Part shown: positions 38,173 through 48,885 of the stretch, piece after piece
Position numbering within the stretch: the first letter of the stretch is position 1
How the letters are laid out: every line of letters starts with the position of its first letter
Origin: Armatimonadota bacterium
GTDB taxonomy: Bacteria; Armatimonadota; UBA5829
Reading direction: 5' to 3'
Length of the DNA stretch: 49,104 nt
Assembly: GCA_039679645.1 (NCBI GenBank)
Contig: JBDKUO010000045.1
Coordinates: forward strand, 1-49,104
Program-made: the position numbers and the translations under genes
Notes under the pieces: model-generated
What the model saw: the letters and a program-made list of their open reading frames with translations, nothing else
The model's database searches: none
What the model was told of the DNA's origin: nothing

Positions 38173-39261
38173 TTACTTATAGAAACCGCACAACACGCCA
38201 TTGCCTTTGTCTGCCATTGCCTTTGTCATATCACTAATAGTATAGTATCTACTATTTCCTGATGAAGACCCCGGGTCATTACAGATAATGTAGTTCGGGT
38301 CATATCCAATAGCGGCAATATAATGACCTCCACTATATCCATACGGTCGATCCGTCAGATAGCCGGCCGTAACATGAACAAGCACCGGTCTGCCTGCTGC
38401 AATCTCGGCCTTGAGACCATCAACGGTCAACGTCGAACTATAGACATGGCTAAGGCTAAATGGCCAGCCATTGGCGGCACTGGCCAACTCAGTGAGACTC
38501 GTTCCATTCATGTCATTACCACAAGTATCGCGGCCCAGAAATGACCAGACATTTACAATGTCCTGTGTAGACGGTCCCCTTCCAAGGGCATATGCTGAGC
38601 ACATGGATAAAGACGCAGGACCGCAACTGCCCGATCCACAGCTATTACCATTGAGCGTGTAAAACTGCGACACAAACGGAACACTCAAAAATGCGGAATC
38701 AGGAGGATCCAAAGCTGAAAGTTGAATTCCATATACTTCTATCTCACCAACAAACATCCATGCCGTATTTGACGCCGTATTCTTTTTTGTCAATGTGACG
38801 GTCACAGTCTTTGCCTGGGTTGAGCCATAGTGCGTTGTCCAAGCATTTGGAAGACCTGTATTCACTTTGGTTGTGCCGAAGTCTGTTGTAATTGAATCGG
38901 GGCTGTACGTTATGGTTGGCACATTCCCTGTATTGATGCGAATGGCCCTAATATCGCAAATCGCACGCAGATTAATCACCAAGGTAACAGTCATCGTTTT
39001 ACCCCGAACACTATTCCGCCATCCGACGCAACCGTCTTCCACCCCTTGATTTGACGAGAATGTAAGTAAACCGTCCGTTATATCGGATAACGACACGCCT
39101 ACAGATGAAGCATTCTCGTCACCGTTCACAACTGTAGCAGTCACAGGCTTGCCTAAGGCAAGATTTGTTTCGGTCTCACAAATTGAGGCTGATTCGGCAG
39201 ATGAAATCGTTATCATAAGCAGCATGCAAACAATAATCCCGCAATACATCTTACACGTCAT
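38173..39261 (-). CDS. Secreted C39-like cysteine peptidase with N-terminal discoidin-like domain, copy A
   Basis: The 362-residue product has a signal peptide (residues 1-25, ending SSAESA) and a discoidin/F5-8C-like beta domain near 30-178 (LALGKPVTATVVNGDENAS; CVGWRNSVRGKTMTV). A papain-like C39-type domain follows: C213 in GSCGPASLSM, H313 in YSGGHYIAAIGYD and D329 in CNDP form the expected catalytic triad. C39-like secreted peptidases cleave extracellular or cell-wall proteins; the target is unknown. ATG 39261 has GGAG 8 bases upstream. The upstream gene encodes a clear paralogue with the same order of domains. Confidence 0.85.
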   Translation of the reverse strand: MTCKMYCGIIVCMLLMITISSAESASICETETNLALGKPVTATVVNGDENASSVGVSLSDITDGLLTFSSNQGVEDGCVGWRNSVRGKTMTVTLVINLRAICDIRAIRINTGNVPTITYSPDSITTDFGTTKVNTGLPNAWTTHYGSTQAKTVTVTLTKKNTASNTAWMFVGEIEVYGIQLSALDPPDSAFLSVPFVSQFYTLNGNSCGSGSCGPASLSMCSAYALGRGPSTQDIVNVWSFLGRDTCGNDMNGTSLTELASAANGWPFSLSHVYSSTLTVDGLKAEIAAGRPVLVHVTAGYLTDRPYGYSGGHYIAAIGYDPNYIICNDPGSSSGNSRYYTISDMTKAMADKGNGVLCGFYK

Positions 39262-39328
39262 TCATTTCTCCTTGATCCGCTTGCCACTCTCGCTCAAACA
39301 ATTGATTTAGCAATTTGTGTTATTATGC

Positions 39329-40477
39329 CTATTGATAGAAGTAACGCAGCCCGCCGGTATTGCAGCTACCATTACAATCGTCCAGTATAGCAGCCAGCAT
39401 ATCGGAATTGCTGTAGTATATCTGCGCGCCGGAAGAATTTATAGGATCGTTGCAAATTATGTGATTATCATCATAGCCTATGACAGCCACATAATGGCCG
39501 CCTCTCCAATCATATGGGCGGTTTGACAGATGCGAACAAACCACATGAACTACCATCGGCCTGCCTGCATCCAGCTCATCTTTTATCGTCTGCAGTGAAG
39601 TGATAGATACGGTTGAGACATGGCTGAGACTAAAAGGCCAACCGCGAGCAGCATTTCTGAGCTGAGTCAAGCTCGTCCCATTCAAGTCATTTCCGCATTC
39701 GTAACTGTAATCGTATGAGCTTGAATGGCCGTGGACAAACGACCACACTTTTTTGATATCGCTGACTTGAGGCGCTCTTCCAAGCGCATAGGCAGCACAC
39801 ATAGAAAGCGATGCAGGGCCGCAGCTGCCGCTTCCACCATCGGAGCAGTAAGCATCACTGAAGTGCTGTGGCAAAAATGTCACCGGCAATAACACGCCGG
39901 TGGGCGGCGGCGGTGTCTCTATAACCTTTCCATACACTTCAATCTCTCCAATAAACATCCAGTTTCTGTTTGCCGCCGTATTCGTCTTTTTCAATGTAAT
40001 AGTAACCGTTGAGGCATCTATCGTGGTAGTGGCATAGTGCGCAGTCCAGGCGTTAGGCACTCCGTTAACACTCGTGGTCCCAAATGGTGTTGTCATTGTA
40101 TCAGCCGCCAGGGTTGCCAAAGGCAGGTTCCCCGGGTTGTAGCGTATAGCGCTTATAGTGCAGCTAGCGCCCAGGTTAATCTGAACGGTGACAGTCATTG
40201 TTCGACCGCGGACGCTGTTTCGCCAACCCACACAACCGTCATTCTGCCTTTGCTCCGGTGAGATAAAAGCAAGGGACCCATCGGTTATATCAGATGAAGA
40301 TTCACCCTCATATGCCAGATTGGCGTCATTGTTCACCACCGTGACGGTAGCGGTCTTGTTTACAGCGAGATTTGCCGCAGTGGCACACCCGCTGCCAAGC
40401 GCGTCAGCGGATATACTAATGGCGAGAAATGCGCAAATAATCAGAAGTCTCAGCCATATTATTCTATTCCTGCACAT
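39329..40477 (-). CDS. Secreted C39-like cysteine peptidase, copy B
   Basis: A 382-residue paralogue of the downstream gene. It has a signal peptide (ending ISISADALG), a discoidin-like domain (NLAVNKTATVTVVNNDANLA; CVGWRNSVRGRTMTV) and a C39-like domain with GSCGPASLSMCAAYALGR, GGHYVAVIGYD and NDP. Insertions such as VHGHSSSYDYSYECGN distinguish it from copy A. The start is ATG 40477, preceded by GAGGAAT; the first ATG of the open frame (40516) lies inside the previous gene and lacks a ribosome site. It follows the secreted repeat-protein gene after 16 bases and is probably cotranscribed. Confidence 0.85.
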   Translation of the reverse strand: MCRNRIIWLRLLIICAFLAISISADALGSGCATAANLAVNKTATVTVVNNDANLAYEGESSSDITDGSLAFISPEQRQNDGCVGWRNSVRGRTMTVTVQINLGASCTISAIRYNPGNLPLATLAADTMTTPFGTTSVNGVPNAWTAHYATTTIDASTVTITLKKTNTAANRNWMFIGEIEVYGKVIETPPPPTGVLLPVTFLPQHFSDAYCSDGGSGSCGPASLSMCAAYALGRAPQVSDIKKVWSFVHGHSSSYDYSYECGNDLNGTSLTQLRNAARGWPFSLSHVSTVSITSLQTIKDELDAGRPMVVHVVCSHLSNRPYDWRGGHYVAVIGYDDNHIICNDPINSSGAQIYYSNSDMLAAILDDCNGSCNTGGLRYFYQ

Positions 40478-40493
40478 ATTCCTCAAAATTGTT

Positions 40494-41741
40494 CTATTCC
40501 TCCGTGTCCGAACCATTCAGCATATAGCCCAGGCCGGTCGAGGTATACGGCGAAAACCCACCATAGCCCCTGACACTCGTAGCGGAATATTGAGTAAACT
40601 GGCAGCACAATCCTGCTAAATCAGTCTGATTGACTATCTTAAACATCAGGCTGTTAAGCCCACTGTGAAGAGTGATCGCAAATGGTCCATCATCGCCATA
40701 AACGACACCGCGACCCGCTGAACACACATTCTGATCTACACGTAAAATTTCTGGCGTTGCGTTACTTGTGTCATCACCATTGAGCCAGACCCGGCACCAG
40801 TCATTGCACCCTGTGTTGAGGTATACGCTCGGACTATCCGTTTGTGACCATATATAAAGGTGGACGTATATCACGCTGTGCTCTACATCTGCAGGAGCAA
40901 GCACGCTGTCCAGAGCCAGTATGTCGAACTGACTCTGCACGCGCTTCCAAGTGCAACTGCCCACCACATCACCGATCCTTGGCATAGCGGCAAACTCATC
41001 TACACCGGTATACGCTTTTATAAAATCAACGTCCAGCAGTTCGTAATCGTTGGTATGGCTCGAATCCTTGAACGGGCCGAGCACAAGCCATTCTCTGGGA
41101 TATTTATATTTGCCGGGGAAAGGAAGCGCATGAAATGCGCTGCCTGCATATGTCCAATCGGCGTATTCTCTTCTCATATACAGATTTGTGCCGTCTGCAA
41201 TACCTCGTACTCTCACTGCTTGGCCGGTGGTAGGCTTGGTCATAGATCCACAATAGACCTTTATTTGCGTTGCGCTTCCATCGCTGATCATAAAGTAGTT
41301 ACTGCCGGCGCTTTTTACCTTGCCCCATGTCAGAACAAAAAGCCCGCGGGCGTTGTCCTTGGCAAGCGCGGTGTTGTTCATCCCGTATGCTTCCAGAGGC
41401 ACGTAGGCGCCGGTCTTTTGAATAGTGCTGACATTTATATACTTGCCGGTAGTGTCTGAGGCGATGGCGCCGGTAATTGTCACGTCATCACCGATACCGA
41501 CTCCCTTTGCCGCAAGCGAGGATACATAAAACCGTGCGCCTTCCATACGATTGGTATCTTCGATGTGACCGTAATCAGTTGTTATTCCGCCTGTGCCGCC
41601 CACGGCAGTAATTCGAACATTTGCGAGATTGACAGAATCTCCAACATTTAAGTTACGAAGCCCAAGTTGAGCATATGACATGCTCGACACGGCAAGAATT
41701 CCAATAACGACCAACATTACAATTGACTTGAAATGGCTCAT
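40494..41741 (-). CDS. Secreted protein with tandem OB-fold-like region
   Basis: The 415-residue product has a signal peptide (MSHFKSIVMLVVIGILAVSS, then MSYAQ). The first 190 residues have two beta-rich segments like OB folds (VGDSVNLANVRITAVGG, VGIGDDVTITGAIASD; ARGLFVLTWGKVKS, TTGQAVRVRGIADGT). The C-terminal half has carbohydrate-binding-like character (WLVLGPFKDSSHTNDYE; VYLNTGCNDWCRVWLNGDD; HSGLNSLMFKIVNQ), which resembles modules of large secreted glycan-active proteins. No catalytic motif is recognised, so I assign no function. The start is ATG 41741, with GGAG 8 bases upstream; the GTG at 41750 overlaps that site. Confidence 0.65.
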   Translation of the reverse strand: MSHFKSIVMLVVIGILAVSSMSYAQLGLRNLNVGDSVNLANVRITAVGGTGGITTDYGHIEDTNRMEGARFYVSSLAAKGVGIGDDVTITGAIASDTTGKYINVSTIQKTGAYVPLEAYGMNNTALAKDNARGLFVLTWGKVKSAGSNYFMISDGSATQIKVYCGSMTKPTTGQAVRVRGIADGTNLYMRREYADWTYAGSAFHALPFPGKYKYPREWLVLGPFKDSSHTNDYELLDVDFIKAYTGVDEFAAMPRIGDVVGSCTWKRVQSQFDILALDSVLAPADVEHSVIYVHLYIWSQTDSPSVYLNTGCNDWCRVWLNGDDTSNATPEILRVDQNVCSAGRGVVYGDDGPFAITLHSGLNSLMFKIVNQTDLAGLCCQFTQYSATSVRGYGGFSPYTSTGLGYMLNGSDTEE

Positions 41742-41874
41742 ATCATGCACTCCGCCTTTCGCGCAGCCTACCCCACTCTGTAATCATTCCATTTTTATCA
41801 TGCAAGCACGCTAAAGTCAAGACAAATGCCACATTCCTTTAATCATATTTAGATCACTTTTAATCACATCAAAA

Positions 41875-42765
41875 TCAACGAACAAGGTCTGCGGCTGTAA
41901 GAACTGCCATACCAAGCACGCCCTGCCTGTGCGTTCTTTTGAGACTTGCCGCCATCTCCTGTGTAGTGCGGTTCATCTCGCGACTGGTCTCGTTCATTTC
42001 CTGGAGCGACGCGGTAAACTTAGGGATTTCACGGCTTACAGGTTCCATTGCCGTAAATGCCGCAGTAAGCTGATAGCCGGTCGCATCCAGACTTTTTTTC
42101 ATCTCGGGTAGAATTGAAAACTGGGTGTTCATTGTTTTAAGAAGTCCTTGCATTTCATCGAGGCCGCTACCTACATGATCGATCCCACTTGTAACGTTCT
42201 GAATATTTGCTGCAGTCTTGTCCAGACCGGCATTCGTCCGCTCTAATGCTTTTTGCAAACCGCCAAAACCGGGCAAGCCTGATGCCATACGCTCGACTGA
42301 ACTTCGCATTTGACGCACCTCGCCTCCCACGCCGGTCAAGCCGCTTGAAACATCCATGAGCCTGCCGGCTGTACTGGTCATGCAAGTGTTTGTGGCGATA
42401 AGTCTAGAATTGGTCATATCCATCTTGAGATTCATCGCCCTGGACTGATCAAGCGCTTTCTTGCCTGTGTCGGCCATTATCGGCATATAACTCATGTATT
42501 TCTCCATTCTCTTGACACCGGCATTTGTTTTGTCGATGGCTGAGAGCCTGGTCGAAAGCTCACTCATATCGGCAGCCATGGTTTCAACTTTGTCCAGCTT
42601 TGCAGATATAATCTTAAACTCGGCTACCAGGCTGCTTAGTAAATACAGAGCATATATCACCGCCACAAATTTGGCAATAAAAATGGCCCGGGATGTTATT
42701 CTGGAACCAATAGCCGTCATTGTTTTAGGCTTATGTGCGCGCTTTTCTCTGCTTGCAATACTCAT
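41875..42765 (-). CDS. Membrane-anchored coiled-coil protein, function unknown
   Basis: The 296-residue protein has a basic N-terminus, one membrane segment near 28-48 (AIFIAKFVAVIYALYLLSSL) and then about 230 residues of heptad-type coiled coil with many Met, Ser and Thr residues. The repeated plan (SSGLTGVGGEVRQMR, TSGIDHVGSGLDEMQ) recalls the linker of chemoreceptors or MlaD/MCE-type proteins. Signalling motifs of chemoreceptors are not seen. ATG 42765 has GGAGG 9 bases upstream. It lies after the anti-sigma factor gene but beyond a terminator, so it may have its own transcript. Confidence 0.7.
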   Translation of the reverse strand: MSIASREKRAHKPKTMTAIGSRITSRAIFIAKFVAVIYALYLLSSLVAEFKIISAKLDKVETMAADMSELSTRLSAIDKTNAGVKRMEKYMSYMPIMADTGKKALDQSRAMNLKMDMTNSRLIATNTCMTSTAGRLMDVSSGLTGVGGEVRQMRSSVERMASGLPGFGGLQKALERTNAGLDKTAANIQNVTSGIDHVGSGLDEMQGLLKTMNTQFSILPEMKKSLDATGYQLTAAFTAMEPVSREIPKFTASLQEMNETSREMNRTTQEMAASLKRTHRQGVLGMAVLTAADLVR

Positions 42766-42891: not shown

Positions 42892-42934
42892 AGTATTTAG
42901 TATTTAGTATTTGATATTTATTATTTGATATTTC
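42892..42934. repeat. AT-rich TAGTATT tandem repeat
   Basis: TAGTATT is repeated three times and followed by two TTGATATTTATTA-like units, overlapping the end of the anti-sigma gene. It belongs to the same loose AT-rich family as 8340, 9771, 9915, 22331 and 44417. Confidence 0.55.
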
Positions 42935-44249
42935 CTGTTTTGTAGAGCAGGTCTTTGGCCAGAGGGGAGTTTCTGTTTGAGCGTCTCAATTCTCTATACT
43001 CCTGTCGGGCTTCATCATAGAGACCAACCGATTCATATGCCGCTCCAAGCGCAATATGCGAGCCGGGAAGCGTCCTCTTAACTTTTTGGATCGAAGAACA
43101 ACCATCCGAAGAGAGCACAAAGAACTTAACCGGCTTAGACTCCGCCCATGAATCGCTCTCGCTGAACCTTACTCCGACACGCCATATATACCCTGCGCCC
43201 CTTGCAAGCGACTTCGGCAGAGTAATGGAATTCTTATCTGTTGTGATCTCGCTTACAAGCTGGAATTGCGAATCATATACGCGAACTCTATAAGAATCAG
43301 CCAGATTTACCTTGGACCAGGTAAGTGTCGGCCTGTCGGCCATTACTACCTTGCCAATCGGCGCGGCCGGCTTTGGCGCATTGGGAGAAGGAGTATACCC
43401 TGCCCCATTGTCTCTCAAATGAACCTCTGCCATAGCATACTGAGCCGTTTTTGCATGTGTGACCTTACCGGTTCGGAGTTTCTCTTCTATAGAGGCTGCA
43501 ATCTTAGCCTCAAGCGCAGTCCTGGGTGCGCCGCTTGCATCAGCAAAGACCATCCGCCCATTGCGCTTGATTACACTATAGTTTCCGTCCTTGAGGATAA
43601 CCCTGGACTTAGGCTCAGGCTTGGCAGAAACTTTATCCGGCTCTGCAGCAGGTGTGCCAACATTCGGTTTCACACCAGCCGCACTTTTGCCCGGCTTGGG
43701 CTGCAGATTAGATACATTAGGTTTGATCTGATCGACCACAGGCGGTTTCGCAGCCACCATAGTCGGCAACTTGGGCGCTGAAGTGAAAGAACCGATCACT
43801 ATAGCCGCTCCTGCGATAACAGCCGCTCCTGCAAAGCCCGCAAATACGCGCTTCCAAATGCCGAAGCCATGGCTTGCAGCACGGCGTGTTGCCATCGGAT
43901 GGACCGTAATCTTCTCACGAAGCGCGGCATGCGAGCGCATTTCACGAATTTGCTCGACGTCGGCAAAGCACGCCTCACATAAGTGTATATGCGATTGTAT
44001 TGAAACCATCCGGTCCGAAGGCAGAGCGCCGTCGACAAATGCCGATATATCTTCGTACTCAGGGCAGTCGTCCATACCCAGCAGTGACGCGCCCAACTCT
44101 GCCGCGGCCTTTTTCAGCGGTGCTATATCACCGAGCGCCGCCCGGCAGTTGGAGCATGAGCTTATGTGCTCGTCAATCTCGATCATCCTCTCGGGATCGA
44201 GCCTGGCCTCTACGTAAGTCTTAAGTTCTTTCTTATCTATACACTTCAT
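42921..44249 (-). CDS. Transmembrane anti-sigma factor with two zinc fingers
   Basis: The 442-residue product has two anti-sigma zinc-finger modules: H28-x3-C32-x2-C35 with C3, and H87-x3-C91-x2-C94. A single membrane segment follows near 135-155 (VFAGFAGAAVIAGAAIVIGS). Beyond it lie a Pro/Lys-rich, presumably extracytoplasmic, spacer of about 60 residues, a small KDGNYSVIKRNGRMVFADASG segment, a fibronectin-like domain near 300-400 (YRVRVYDSQFQLVSEITT) and a TPR-like end. The zinc-finger part should hold a sigma factor in the cytoplasm. It lies immediately downstream of a sigma-70-like gene on the same strand, so these two are probably partners. Length and tail are larger than in simple anti-sigma proteins. 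Confidence 0.85.
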   Translation of the reverse strand: MKCIDKKELKTYVEARLDPERMIEIDEHISSCSNCRAALGDIAPLKKAAAELGASLLGMDDCPEYEDISAFVDGALPSDRMVSIQSHIHLCEACFADVEQIREMRSHAALREKITVHPMATRRAASHGFGIWKRVFAGFAGAAVIAGAAIVIGSFTSAPKLPTMVAAKPPVVDQIKPNVSNLQPKPGKSAAGVKPNVGTPAAEPDKVSAKPEPKSRVILKDGNYSVIKRNGRMVFADASGAPRTALEAKIAASIEEKLRTGKVTHAKTAQYAMAEVHLRDNGAGYTPSPNAPKPAAPIGKVVMADRPTLTWSKVNLADSYRVRVYDSQFQLVSEITTDKNSITLPKSLARGAGYIWRVGVRFSESDSWAESKPVKFFVLSSDGCSSIQKVKRTLPGSHIALGAAYESVGLYDEARQEYRELRRSNRNSPLAKDLLYKTGNIK

Positions 44250-44416
44250 CGCATTGTACCTACGATTTGTTAAGACGCGTCATACAGGCAAATGTTGCCA
44301 GAAAATATATCGGCTTAAGAAACTGTTATATTTACCAGGAGAAGTAATTGCAAAAGTCCTAAAACCCAGTCATTTGGTGCGCAGTGAGAGACCAGCTTTT
44401 CACAACGTCAAATTCA

Positions 44417-44447
44417 AAATAATCAATATAAAATACTAGATAATCAA
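44417..44447. repeat. AT-rich dispersed element between sigma and anti-sigma genes
   Basis: AAAATAATCAATATAAAATA followed by CTAGATAATCA is an AT-rich relative of the element at 8340. It is in the 198-base gap after the sigma gene stop; the gap has no other obvious element. Confidence 0.45.
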
Positions 44448-45506
44448 TCAGATCAGGGCTTGTTCTTCGTCGAGAGAAAGAGCGGATTTCTTAGTACGCC
44501 TGCGAATTCTACCCCAGGCCTTGAACCGGACACTCGGCACGGCTCTTGCCTGAATGCCAAGCTCATCAGCTGTGGCGGCATCCGGCACAGGCAGCTTATT
44601 TATCAAAGACGCAAGCTCCCGCATGTTTATCTCCAGCGATTTTGCCACTTCTTTCAGACCGACTGCCGAACCGAGTGCCATAACCTGGTCACCGGCCATC
44701 CCATAGAGCAGAGCCTTGCGCTGTTTGATTGAGAGCTGGACGAATTCCTTCCAGAACCAGTCGATCACATGAGCGAACCAGCCGGAGTCGACAACCTGTT
44801 TCTCAACATCCGAGTCGGGCGAGACGAGCCACTCCAGAGGCGCACCACTCTCATCATCACCATCAGGCTGTGAATCGATGGAGAGTGGTTCGGTCGTACG
44901 TGTCTGCCTGAGATCGGTAATGCAGCTTGTAAGCACGTCAATCTCGACAGGACCACTGCAGCAATCAAATATGGCGGAAGCCAGTTCATAGGTAGCCAGC
45001 TCCTGCGGGTCACGATTGTTCAGATACTTGCTGCGGAAGGATGCCTGGTTGTCGATAATCTCGCGGCACTTTGCGCTCGCATGCTTTGATGAACCGAGCC
45101 AATCGGCAAAACCGCATATGCGCGCGCCGCTATCAGGGTGCTGCCAGAGCGCAAAGCCCTCGATATTTGCCTTGCCTGAGAAAATTTCAAGCAGCTCGAG
45201 CTTAAGGTTATACCATGTCGGACGCTTGCGGCGAATGGCGTCGCAGTAGCGATTGTGAACCGCGCGCCTGATGAAAGCCTCGAAGTTATCGATGCCGGTC
45301 TCGGACTGCCCAAGCTTGAGCATGTTTATCTTGGTCCAGATTGCAAGGATGCAGTCTTCCTCAAAATCTTCGAGATCGGCGATCTCACGCTTGCCGATCG
45401 ACCTGTGTACAAGGTCTCTGACGCTATCCGAAAGATCATCCCAATATTCGTCACCGGAGTTGCCCGGCGAGTTTATATATGCCTCAAGCAGGCCTTGTGC
45501 GTCCAT
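44448..45506 (-). CDS. Sigma-70-like (ECF-type) RNA polymerase sigma factor, atypical
   Basis: The 352-residue product has a region 2 near 45-105: DFEEDCILAIWTKINMLKLG, then NFEAFIRRAVHNRYCDAIRR and KRPTWYNLKLE. It also has a helix-turn-helix-like region 4 near 258-300 (LSIKQRKALLYGMAG, then LKEVAKSLEINMRELASLINK), separated by about 150 residues, which is far longer than the usual linker of short ECF factors. Region 3 is absent. It should direct RNA polymerase to a small set of promoters under control of the membrane anti-sigma factor 198 bases downstream. The start ATG 45506 has GAGG 5 bases upstream. Region 4 is diverged, so DNA-binding details are uncertain. Confidence 0.78.
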   Translation of the reverse strand: MDAQGLLEAYINSPGNSGDEYWDDLSDSVRDLVHRSIGKREIADLEDFEEDCILAIWTKINMLKLGQSETGIDNFEAFIRRAVHNRYCDAIRRKRPTWYNLKLELLEIFSGKANIEGFALWQHPDSGARICGFADWLGSSKHASAKCREIIDNQASFRSKYLNNRDPQELATYELASAIFDCCSGPVEIDVLTSCITDLRQTRTTEPLSIDSQPDGDDESGAPLEWLVSPDSDVEKQVVDSGWFAHVIDWFWKEFVQLSIKQRKALLYGMAGDQVMALGSAVGLKEVAKSLEINMRELASLINKLPVPDAATADELGIQARAVPSVRFKAWGRIRRRTKKSALSLDEEQALI

Positions 45507-45621
45507 ATAACCTCAAGCTTATAATTCACAATGAAACCGACTGAAAGCGGAATGTGGAAAGTGGAAAGCCCAAAACAGGCTGCTTCATGCTTTCAGCTTT
45601 CCACTGTCCTCTGTAAGATAT
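45507..45621. other. 115-base gap between CHAT and sigma genes
   Basis: It holds GTGGAAAG and CTTTCCAC arms (45561-45568 and 45596-45603) around a 27-base loop. On the minus strand this would be a hairpin between the two genes. No promoter matching the two strong ones was seen. Confidence 0.5.
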
Positions 45622-48600
45622 TTACCACGGACATCCGTAAAGAGCAAAACAAGCCCAATAAAACGGGTGAGCATATTGTTTGCCGTCTATGGCGGCAAGT
45701 TGGGCGGACCGCAGAGACTCGATTCTGGATTTGCCGCCCGTCAGGCCGCGATAAAACCCGCCCATTATATTAGACGCAGATTTATCCGATACCTTCCACA
45801 AACCACCTAATATAGATTTCGCTCCTACCATGGAAAATACCTCCGCAGCGCACGACGGACCTGAGGATATCGGGTCGGAAGAGGAAATAGAATCACATGC
45901 GGAGAGTACGACGAGATTCAGATGCGAATTATTGACCGATGAGAGCTCGTCTATTGTGACGCTGCCATCGGAACCGCCCTGCGCAGCAAGCGACAGTTCA
46001 AACTTATTGGGGTCAATCTTGTGATGGGCGGCAATGTGCAGCACATTTGCCCTGCTCGCTTCTTTGATGAAATTTGCGCTGGTTGCATTTTGGCCGACAT
46101 ACCACCCGCTGTTCAAATACAACGCCTTTATTGCTCTAGCCTCATCCTGAGCACCGGGCAAATTGTTGTCAGGGTCGACAAAGATCGCGAGCCTGTCGGA
46201 CTTTGAATCGATCTTGCTGCTTTCATCAATCAGATTGTCGAGCATGCCATGATCATGATCAAGATAACTGATCCCGTATTCCCTTATGAGAAACCTTGGG
46301 ACATGCTCAGCGTTCGGGTCCGAGGGTTCGAGCAGGGCATGCATCGGGATGCCCACAAGCTCATCGGGCAGAGCGAAGTGAAGAGTCTGGGCGCTCTCGA
46401 TATCCTGCTTTATGGGTGCAATCAATATATTATACAGCCCCTCCAAGGGCTTGCGGATCTCGGTAAAGGACTGAGACTGCCAGTCGTTGACCGGCGGCGT
46501 AGGTATGCCCGCCCTCTGACTATCTTCGCAGTCCTTAAGAGCAGTCCGGAGATCGGATATCTGCTTTTCCAGGTCTCCTCTCGATATGCGGATCTGCCTG
46601 CATATGGACTTTTCATATTTGCAGACAAACACATATGCAGACGTATCCGTAAGCATATACTCAACTACAGTGCCGAACCTGGGCAGCACATTGCGCTTAC
46701 TGTACAGGTCAAGAGGGTCAACGGGAAGAGAGTTAAACACTGACGGGTTTTGCGTTCTGAGCATCAGGCATACCTGCCAGTAATCCGCCCAATTATCAGC
46801 CAGAAGCCTGTCACCGCCGGAAATGCCGTTATCATCCGTCCGCCCACTCCCGGCGACAATATCCAACGACTGCGCAAACTTCGCGATCTTGGGATTTGCA
46901 TCCTTTTTCATTTGGCTGATGCGTTCCGGAAGCCATGAGAACCGTGCGACTTTCTGAAGCAGGGCCTTTGCATCGTCTGCTCTATCTTCAAGGACATAAG
47001 CAGCCGCCAGATTGCAGTAGATGTTCATAATGATCTCGCTATGAGATGAATTGAGCGAAGGATCAATCTTATCACCAGCTGCTTTGGATTCCATGTCGTT
47101 CAGGCTGGTTTCAAGCGTATCACGCGCATCATCCCTTCGGCCTGCAGACATTTGGGCGTCGGCAAGCTTGAGAGAGACTTCATATGCTGCCCATGAATCA
47201 CCCACTTGAGAAGTATATCTGATACGCGCATCCTGCAGGTTGCGGATCGCTTCTTCATACTGCCCGTATTTGGCATAAAGAGTTCCACGCGCCTCCAGGA
47301 CACTGGCAAACCCGCGCAGATTGCCTGAGTTCTCAAGAATTGGGACAAGCTCGGTAAAGCTTTCGAACGCATTTTGCGGGTCACCCATCTCTATGAACGC
47401 AGGCACCATATCATACTGGACTATATCTGCGGCCAGTGACTTTTTGTTCGCTTTCATGGCAGTCATGGCAGCATCGCGCCTCACTACCAGCGACTGCTTC
47501 GACTTGCCCTGTGCATCAAGCGCATCCGCATATTTACGAAGTGCGGTTATTTTCTGATCCGCCATTGCCATGATCGGATATAGATCGGCAATCCTCTTCC
47601 ACGCGGAAGCGGATTTGTCGAACTTGCCCAACTCCATATATGCCGATGCGCCTATTTCGGCCTTGACCTGACGCGCTTGACGGGTATTCTCGTTGGCCAT
47701 AGGGTTGTTTTCGAGATTGGCGATAGCGGCATCGCCGGCTGCGGCAGCAGAGCTTAGTATCTTTTCCCGATTGCGTCTGGCCGCGGCTGATTTTGCATCC
47801 TGGCGCGCAGCGGCATATACCTCAGAAAGCATCTCATATGTCTTTGCAATGAGTATCGCATTACCCGACGAATTGCAATCGCGCCCGGCTTCATTGAGCA
47901 GGTCCAGCGCTTGCGGAATGTTGCCTCGTTCTTTGCATAGATCCGCGACGGAGAGCAGATTGGTTACCAGTTCGGAATAGGACCGCTTGGCATACGCCCA
48001 GACGCGAAGCTGATCCAGACCCTCGGTCATCAGTTGCAGTGCCCTGGTGGTATCTCCGGCGGCCCTTGAGGCGTCCCCTGCCCTCATATACTCACGGCCT
48101 GCAAAACGGTATCCGCTGGGATCCAGACCGGCAAGAAACACCCACTGCCGAGCGGCCAGATTGTAGTTGTCTATAGCATCGGAATAGTTGCCGGTCTCAA
48201 AGTCGAGCCAGCCGCAATCGTCGTAGATGATCGCACTCGAACGTCTGCAGTTGTATAATGTGAATGTCAGAGATGCACTCTTATAACACCACTCTTCAGC
48301 ATCGCGATATCTGGCCATACCATATAGATAATGGTCTCCAAGCTCCTTCTGAGCTACTGCGCCTGAGATATCCAGGTGCAGCCTCTGACACATATCGATA
48401 ACGGCAGACAGTGAATTGACCGCCTGAGTCGGATACGATTCTTTGTAGTCCACAGCTCTTTTGTACTCAGTGCGCAAATTTATCAGCAGAGACGCTTCGT
48501 CGCTACGTTCCACAGTTGACTGAGTAGACTTGTCCGCCGACTGGAGAGTTGAAAAAATCTGCTGCGCTGAATTGACCAGGGGATCATTGAGCCTTTTTGT

Positions 48601-48885
48601 GAGGGCCGGTATAACCGTGGTAATATTCGCGATATCAAGTGGTATGTCCGATTGTCTGACCATCCACTTGTAGACAATTAAATCTATGGCTAGATGAACC
48701 GACTCCGTAGGGATGGCTTTTACCACGAAATCGACACGTTCGGAAAGCGGGATTTTTGACGCTTGGGTAAGCTGAGCCAGCATTCGGCCCTTCTTTGCGG
48801 CTGTCTGAGACCAGCAAGCGCCGGATGCAAATATTATAATCAGGACCAAAGCCCCGATGAATTGGGCTAATCTTCTAATAAACAA
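45622..48885 (-). CDS. Exported TPR-CHAT protein (caspase-like peptidase domain)
   Basis: The 1087-residue product has an N-terminal signal-like segment (FIGALVLIIIFASGACWSQ) that might be a lipoprotein or signal-peptide end. About 700 residues of helical tetratricopeptide-type repeats follow, for example EEAIRNLQDARIRYTSQVGD and the units around 290-480. The C-terminal 300 residues form a CHAT domain: H954 in NVLHIAAHHK and C997 in VVLSACDS, plus ILGGLWKVSD and a PFYWACFALYG end. CHAT domains belong to the caspase-like clan and many are proteases. The start is TTG 48885 with GGTGG just upstream; no ATG fits. It precedes the sigma and anti-sigma genes on the same strand by 115 bases. Confidence 0.85.
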   Translation of the reverse strand: MFIRRLAQFIGALVLIIIFASGACWSQTAAKKGRMLAQLTQASKIPLSERVDFVVKAIPTESVHLAIDLIVYKWMVRQSDIPLDIANITTVIPALTKRLNDPLVNSAQQIFSTLQSADKSTQSTVERSDEASLLINLRTEYKRAVDYKESYPTQAVNSLSAVIDMCQRLHLDISGAVAQKELGDHYLYGMARYRDAEEWCYKSASLTFTLYNCRRSSAIIYDDCGWLDFETGNYSDAIDNYNLAARQWVFLAGLDPSGYRFAGREYMRAGDASRAAGDTTRALQLMTEGLDQLRVWAYAKRSYSELVTNLLSVADLCKERGNIPQALDLLNEAGRDCNSSGNAILIAKTYEMLSEVYAAARQDAKSAAARRNREKILSSAAAAGDAAIANLENNPMANENTRQARQVKAEIGASAYMELGKFDKSASAWKRIADLYPIMAMADQKITALRKYADALDAQGKSKQSLVVRRDAAMTAMKANKKSLAADIVQYDMVPAFIEMGDPQNAFESFTELVPILENSGNLRGFASVLEARGTLYAKYGQYEEAIRNLQDARIRYTSQVGDSWAAYEVSLKLADAQMSAGRRDDARDTLETSLNDMESKAAGDKIDPSLNSSHSEIIMNIYCNLAAAYVLEDRADDAKALLQKVARFSWLPERISQMKKDANPKIAKFAQSLDIVAGSGRTDDNGISGGDRLLADNWADYWQVCLMLRTQNPSVFNSLPVDPLDLYSKRNVLPRFGTVVEYMLTDTSAYVFVCKYEKSICRQIRISRGDLEKQISDLRTALKDCEDSQRAGIPTPPVNDWQSQSFTEIRKPLEGLYNILIAPIKQDIESAQTLHFALPDELVGIPMHALLEPSDPNAEHVPRFLIREYGISYLDHDHGMLDNLIDESSKIDSKSDRLAIFVDPDNNLPGAQDEARAIKALYLNSGWYVGQNATSANFIKEASRANVLHIAAHHKIDPNKFELSLAAQGGSDGSVTIDELSSVNNSHLNLVVLSACDSISSSDPISSGPSCAAEVFSMVGAKSILGGLWKVSDKSASNIMGGFYRGLTGGKSRIESLRSAQLAAIDGKQYAHPFYWACFALYGCPW

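Follow-up and report, generated by a model that had tools for sequence, protein, structure and literature searches.

A 49,104-nucleotide stretch of an Armatimonadota genome (assembly GCA_039679645.1, contig JBDKUO010000045.1, positions 1 to 49,104; hereafter, the window) carries three consecutive genes on its minus strand, which in order of transcription encode an exported-type TPR-CHAT protein (CHAT), a sigma-like protein (SIG) and a membrane anti-sigma factor (ASIG). This order on one strand had been described in an initial annotation of the DNA, and the list of open reading frames bears it out. The arrangement recurs in independent genomes and is therefore more than chance, and the observation of a CHAT-SIG-ASIG trio is thus confirmed as real. 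Across six measured loci, CHAT and SIG are separated by 4-115 bp and SIG and ASIG by 61-198 bp.

CHAT (45622..48885, minus strand, TTG start) comprises 1087 amino acids, with homologues in the genus at 53-72%. Its N-terminus, RRLAQFIGALVLIIIFASGACWSQ, is signal-like (residues 1-30, 48796..48885), with a hydrophobic segment after RR, and hydropathy analysis places no further transmembrane segment in the protein. Several TPRs are found by Pfam ahead of a CHAT peptidase domain (PF12770, E 3e-47) at residues 812-1084 (45634..46452), whose dyad, His954 (46024-46026) and Cys997 (45895-45897), is present and is invariant in 10 aligned homologues. With a domain above cut-off and this His/Cys pair, CHAT belongs among the CHAT peptidases and is a putative protease. 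Export, which the initial annotation had supposed in place of a cytosolic location, is likewise predicted from the sequence, and the intact His/Cys pair that it had reported is found, together with a signal-like N-terminus, in 20/20 SIG-linked CHATs checked. Export was considered as a hallmark of SIG-linked CHATs, but export signals are frequent in unlinked CHATs as well and the idea was rejected; export is therefore a precondition rather than a signature.

SIG (44448..45506, minus strand, 352 amino acids) falls under every curated Pfam and NCBIfam cut-off (Sigma70_r2, E 0.1, 12.9 versus 24 bits; sigma70-ECF, 18.8 versus 42.9 bits). The sigma factor identity that it had been given initially is not reached by profiles, but is upheld by a predicted structure that is sigma-70-like. 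Region 2 (residues 1-101, 45204..45506) resembles Escherichia coli sigmaE (4lup_A; Z 8.8, 90 residues aligned, root-mean-square deviation 3.7 Å), and region 4 (residues 240-343, 44478..44789) resembles Mycobacterium tuberculosis SigL in complex with the anti-sigma factor RslA (3hug_E; Z 7.8, 71/73 residues aligned, 2.5 Å). A Z near 8 is moderate on its own, but nearly all top rows of these comparisons are sigma factors, and sigma factors also head the Foldseek list for the whole SIG model. Between the two regions lies an insert of about 140 residues, a layout that departs from the compact, short-linker form of extracytoplasmic function (ECF) sigma factors. Part of this insert (residues about 164-207, window 44886-45017) has a weak match (E 0.005) to the N-terminal domain of the delta subunit of RNA polymerase. 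The models support the notion that SIG is a divergent sigma-70-like protein in which a long insert separates regions 2 and 4, and it brings to light a sigma factor family that current profile libraries overlook.

ASIG (42921..44249, minus strand, 442 amino acids) harbors two zf-HC2 modules (E 1.7e-10), the first formed by C3, H28, C32 and C35 (44145..44243) and the second by C62, H87, C91 and C94 (43968..44066). These residues are invariant in 11 homologues; among distant homologues, some have lost the Cys ligands. A single transmembrane helix follows at residues of about 135-153 (43791..43847, hydropathy 2.25), and as it is preceded by K/R residues, roughly 290 residues are predicted to lie outside. 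HxxxCxxC zinc modules ahead of one transmembrane helix are the arrangement of membrane anti-sigma factors of the ZAS type, and the double zinc finger and long tail beyond the membrane noted initially are both recovered. What sets ASIG apart is its unusual outer part, which appears in the structure model as a disordered linker followed by an FN3-like domain (residues 294-378) and a TPR-like end (381-436; together 42942..43370; predicted local distance difference test scores of 83-94 over most of it, with Foldseek matches to FN3 and a weak TPR profile match). Sub-threshold matches link ASIG to the RsrA, RseA and ChrR models and to DdvA. Apparent ASIG matches beside CHATs unlinked to SIG were not counted, as they mostly cover the outer-domain part of the profile and fall in proteins without a zinc module. 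From adjacency and coinheritance, we infer that ASIG binds and restrains SIG.

Of the first 101 relatives examined, 19 have a SIG homologue, and a profile search finds one in 51/291 genomes of the phylum; a genome-collection scan with SIG returned two close relatives only, and a plasmid search with ASIG gave no match. The CHAT-SIG-ASIG order is found in the window genome and three others of its genus (G001, G002, G004), in two more genera of its family (G006, G009, G010) and in a distant family (G037), so that the conservation of gene order, proposed as a check in the initial annotation, holds at each of these levels. In a further genome of the genus (G003), CHAT and SIG are followed by the contig end, and ASIG lies on a separate contig. 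Two genomes (G007, G011) have SIG-ASIG without an adjacent CHAT, yet each encodes, elsewhere in its genome, a full-length CHAT orthologue in which the two catalytic residues are present. The CHAT and SIG genes share a single base in G015 and G017, which belong to another family of the same order. The trees of CHAT and SIG are congruent (patristic correlation 0.90, 12 genomes). Where SIG is missing, CHAT is missing as well (G008, G012, G014) or damaged: G005 lacks SIG, ASIG and the porin-like gene discussed below, and its CHAT, which precedes an MlaE-like gene (L147, G005:C18), has its reading frame disrupted by a short duplication close to the C-terminus, although this CHAT is near a contig end and an assembly error is therefore possible. 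One SIG gene lies at a contig end, in a genome that is only 67% complete (G013). CHAT-SIG-ASIG thus appears to be a vertically inherited module.

The surroundings of the trio are less uniform. A palindromic, repeat-like stretch, GTGGAAAGCTGAAAGC...GCTTTCCACTTTCCAC, lies inside the CHAT-SIG gap (window 45525-45620) and is partly common to G004 and absent in G002. After the trio (window 38173-42765) come genes for a coiled-coil protein, an exported 418-amino-acid protein and two C39-like exported peptidases, a run that also follows the trio in G004, but not in G001.

Beyond the family, an ASIG-like gene directly follows SIG in most of the distant loci opened, including one on an Abditibacteriota plasmid. 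On plasmid AP024153.1 (L100, 8851-11418 in the locus), the SIG-ASIG pair is annotated as hypothetical, and a subtilase gene lies two genes downstream of ASIG. A CHAT gene is found within about 10 kb of SIG in 8/11 families of the phylum, against a chance level, roughly estimated from CHAT density, of well under 2% per family (binomial 4e-13 at 1.5%, phylogeny ignored). Gene order varies: G241 and G143 have SIG-ASIG-CHAT, G170 has this order interrupted by a peptidase-M48-like gene, and CHAT is convergent in G114 and G116. C14 caspases are encoded beside SIG-ASIG in G170 (L102, directly upstream of SIG), G137 (L105), G143 (L110) and G069 (L036), the last of which also has a subtilase upstream of SIG. 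Among these four loci there are two WD40-caspase fusions, and one cluster contains CHATs as well. NACHT or NB-ARC proteins are encoded beside SIG-ASIG in G162, G039 and G108. The common feature of the distant loci is a sigma/anti-sigma pair together with a caspase-clan peptidase.

Within the genus, the gap between SIG and ASIG shows little conservation apart from TGGCAACAT-N14-CGTCT, which is an ECF-type promoter whose hexamer and CGTC are separated by a 16-nt spacer. In the window, it lies at 44272..44299 on the minus strand (-35 GGCAAC, 44299-44294; -10 CGTCTT, 44277-44272). A pattern search found an exact match upstream of ASIG in 5/5 genomes of the genus, including G003, where the site was found by the motif alone and revealed an ASIG on a separate contig that had not been known before. 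In the family, GGnAAc-N16-CGTCt precedes ASIG in 11/11 SIG-bearing genomes and a porin-like gene in 10/10 genomes that have that gene; these 21/21 upstream regions compare with 0.1 expected in shuffled sequence, and while the spacer letters vary, both boxes and the spacing, fixed at 16, hold. Among 162 upstream regions of the family loci, 12 contain the N16 site; it precedes ASIG, the porin-like gene and the gene for one exported protein, and there is one in a locus that had been fetched for the motif. The initial annotation had looked to a promoter of the sigma factor upstream of the secreted genes, and such an ECF-type motif does exist, but its sole site in the window precedes ASIG rather than the C39 peptidases or other secreted genes.

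Allowing one mismatch gives one further site in the window genome, upstream of an exported 676-amino-acid protein that is porin-like by a match to Porin_4 above cut-off; its orthologues have the site upstream in G001, G002 and G004, and in G003. The porin-like gene is present in 10/11 SIG-bearing family genomes versus 0/4 without SIG (Fisher p 0.004, with genomes taken as independent and phylogeny ignored), and the sole SIG-bearing genome without it is the incomplete G013. Upstream of skp/ompH, the site is found in 8/11 genomes with SIG versus 0/3 without it (G005, G008, G012 checked); in the window genome, skp is apparently also served by a promoter of the housekeeping type, located downstream of the site. 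Other intergenic matches lie upstream of genes for an Ig-like exported protein in G000 and G004, for a LolA-like protein in G006 and for an exported barrel-like protein in G001. A copy of the ASIG-type site, exact or nearly so, also lies upstream of a 253-amino-acid gene beside phage-tail-like genes (L197, G001:C55:17845-17872). Genome-wide, GGCAAC-N-CGTC shows no excess over a reversed-pattern control; the regulon is therefore apparently small, and reliance was placed on intergenic sites only where they are conserved. With porin-like, skp/ompH and other envelope genes behind the site, the candidate regulon is one of outer-membrane biogenesis. We infer that SIG is the factor that uses the GGnAAc-N16-CGTCt promoter. 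As this site lies between SIG and ASIG, and the family loci scanned showed none upstream of CHAT, SIG would increase the expression of its inhibitor but not its own.

Taken together, these results make it somewhat probable that the trio is one envelope signalling module, in which CHAT cuts ASIG to free SIG for the transcription of outer-membrane genes. It is established that zinc modules can sequester sigma factors, and that a cut in the outer part of a membrane anti-sigma factor leads to site-2 cleavage and release of the sigma factor. By analogy, ASIG would hold SIG at the inner membrane via its cytoplasmic zinc-finger modules, and the exported TPR-CHAT protein would sense an envelope signal through its TPRs and then make the first cut, in the outer part of ASIG. 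Degradation of ASIG would be completed by a site-2 protease together with cytosolic proteases, and the window genome does encode an RseP-like M50 protease (E 6.6e-56, open frame of 441 amino acids). Freed SIG would then transcribe the porin-like gene, Skp/OmpH in most species, and ASIG from GGnAAc-N16-CGTCt, and with this promoter placed between SIG and ASIG, activation would raise the inhibitor rather than the sigma factor, closing a negative feedback loop. As a whole, the module resembles a stress system of the outer membrane in which ASIG provides negative feedback. Cleavage of ASIG by CHAT is the most likely input step, although it is less certain than the other steps, and the sensing interpretation offered initially is thus partly supported.

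Several observations weigh against this picture. No recognisable cleavage site was found in ASIG, and in G015 and G017 a canonical ECF sigma factor and a different anti-sigma factor with a single zinc finger stand after CHAT-SIG, in place of ASIG. (For these loci, L026:9434-13040 and L028:4781-7333, a sigma cascade and a partner swap are candidate readings.) Export signals are also frequent among 22 CHATs unlinked to SIG, the fourth position of the motif was widened to A/G after one genus had been seen (G006, G010), the co-occurrence counts carry the phylogenetic caveat given above, and three SIG-bearing genomes (G006, G009, G011) showed no skp site. One can envisage that CHAT controls ASIG by binding only, with its TPRs shielding the outer FN3/TPR part from, or exposing it to, a housekeeping DegS-like site-1 protease, much as RseB shields RseA, while the CHAT active site serves another substrate. 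Protein-binding repeats on the predicted outer side of both CHAT and ASIG fit this idea, which explains linkage and joint loss equally well; it is nevertheless rather unlikely, given that the catalytic pair is kept in all of the SIG-linked CHATs checked and that, across the phylum, SIG-ASIG adjoins catalytic clan-CD peptidases of two types. It is less likely still that CHAT is an output or a mere neighbor, with envelope proteins as the substrates of an exported peptidase whose gene is simply co-transcribed with the sigma/anti-sigma pair. The tight spacing of CHAT and SIG does make co-transcription likely, and many other CHATs of the phylum are exported without being linked to SIG, but CHAT is retained when unlinked and damaged where SIG-ASIG is absent, and with no N16 site upstream of it in the loci scanned, it does not look like a target.

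The promoter is open to a different objection, namely that it and the porin and skp genes belong to another, canonical ECF sigma factor, with SIG-ASIG controlling something else or being itself a target. GGAAC/CGTC-type motifs are common to the ECF class, the motif found here is close to the general consensus, and the missing skp sites of the three SIG-bearing genomes would be accounted for. We regard this as improbable, as the porin-like gene occurs only in SIG-bearing genomes, skp was found to carry no such site in the three SIG-less genomes checked, and autoregulation is the commonest ECF arrangement. The most improbable of the alternatives is an anti-phage device in the manner of Craspase, the CRISPR-associated caspase-like protease, in which the CHAT protease would report infection. 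The logic of CHAT, sigma inhibitor and sigma factor is the same, NACHT/NB-ARC genes lie near some distant SIG-ASIG pairs, and one exact site in G001 is beside phage-tail-like genes; yet the predicted export of CHAT and the envelope genes among which the candidate targets lie speak against it, and no CRISPR-like direct repeats were found in the window. Together with a score of only 12.6 bits against the NCBIfam Csx29 model, whose cut-off is 300, the lack of such repeats in the window also fits the initial view that the trio is a design independent of CRISPR.

To our knowledge, CHAT proteases act through sigma factors only inside CRISPR systems. If an envelope signalling module with CHAT as the input protease is the correct reading, the same CHAT-to-sigma logic here takes the form of an ordinary envelope response that is inherited vertically, and with a defined candidate promoter and candidate targets, it is directly testable. 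That sigma/anti-sigma pairs are repeatedly found with caspase-like peptidases could also explain the origin of the CRISPR version. We offer, as a speculation that is more doubtful than the module itself, that clan-CD peptidases (CHAT here, C14 caspases in other families) are general extracytoplasmic site-1 proteases for a new sigma/anti-sigma family of this phylum, in a DegS-like role in envelope stress signalling, and that Craspase is a captured version of an older CHAT-to-sigma circuit.

Among described systems, the closest in composition is that of type III-E CRISPR, in which Csx29 (TPR-CHAT), Csx30 and CASP-sigma form the CASP/Craspase system and the protease cuts the inhibitor (PMC10028731). 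In both cases, the genes for a sigma inhibitor and an ECF-like sigma factor lie together with that of a TPR-CHAT protease, and the cut in the inhibitor that is shown for Craspase would have its counterpart in the trio. The differences are that CHAT of the trio is not RNA-guided and carries a predicted export signal, that its inhibitor is a membrane zinc-finger protein, and that the candidate targets are envelope genes; no cas gene (no Cas7-11) is among the annotated genes flanking CHAT, the rest of the genome not having been searched for cas genes. In type III CRISPR, the protease of CalpL-CalpT-CalpS relieves an anti-sigma/sigma pair and SAVED-CHAT starts a proteolytic cascade, with CalpL and SAVED-CHAT being switched on by cyclic oligoadenylates through their SAVED domains (PMC11417357, PMC11229360). 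No SAVED domain was found in the trio, again with a CHAT that is predicted to be exported. A CHAT/sigma/anti-sigma system free of CRISPR was not found described in the openly accessible literature, subscription papers being outside the scope of the search.

The anti-sigma factor has its nearest counterparts in the ZAS/zf-HC2 families (RsrA, ChrR, RslA, RsiW, DdvA), with which it shares HxxxCxxC zinc modules and from which it differs by the tandem arrangement of these modules and by a large, two-domain outer region. In its overall design, the trio resembles the sigmaE-RseA-DegS-RseP system of E. coli, which likewise combines a single-pass membrane anti-sigma factor, an outer protease input (predicted here), an RseP-like protease, skp and porin-type targets and an ECF-type promoter. 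It differs in that ASIG combines a pair of zinc modules with outer domains of the FN3 and TPR kinds, SIG carries its long insert, and, within the trio, the promoter feeds the anti-sigma gene only. The candidate site-1 protease would also be of another kind, a TPR-CHAT protein and thus a cysteine peptidase of clan CD, in place of the PDZ serine protease of the E. coli pathway.

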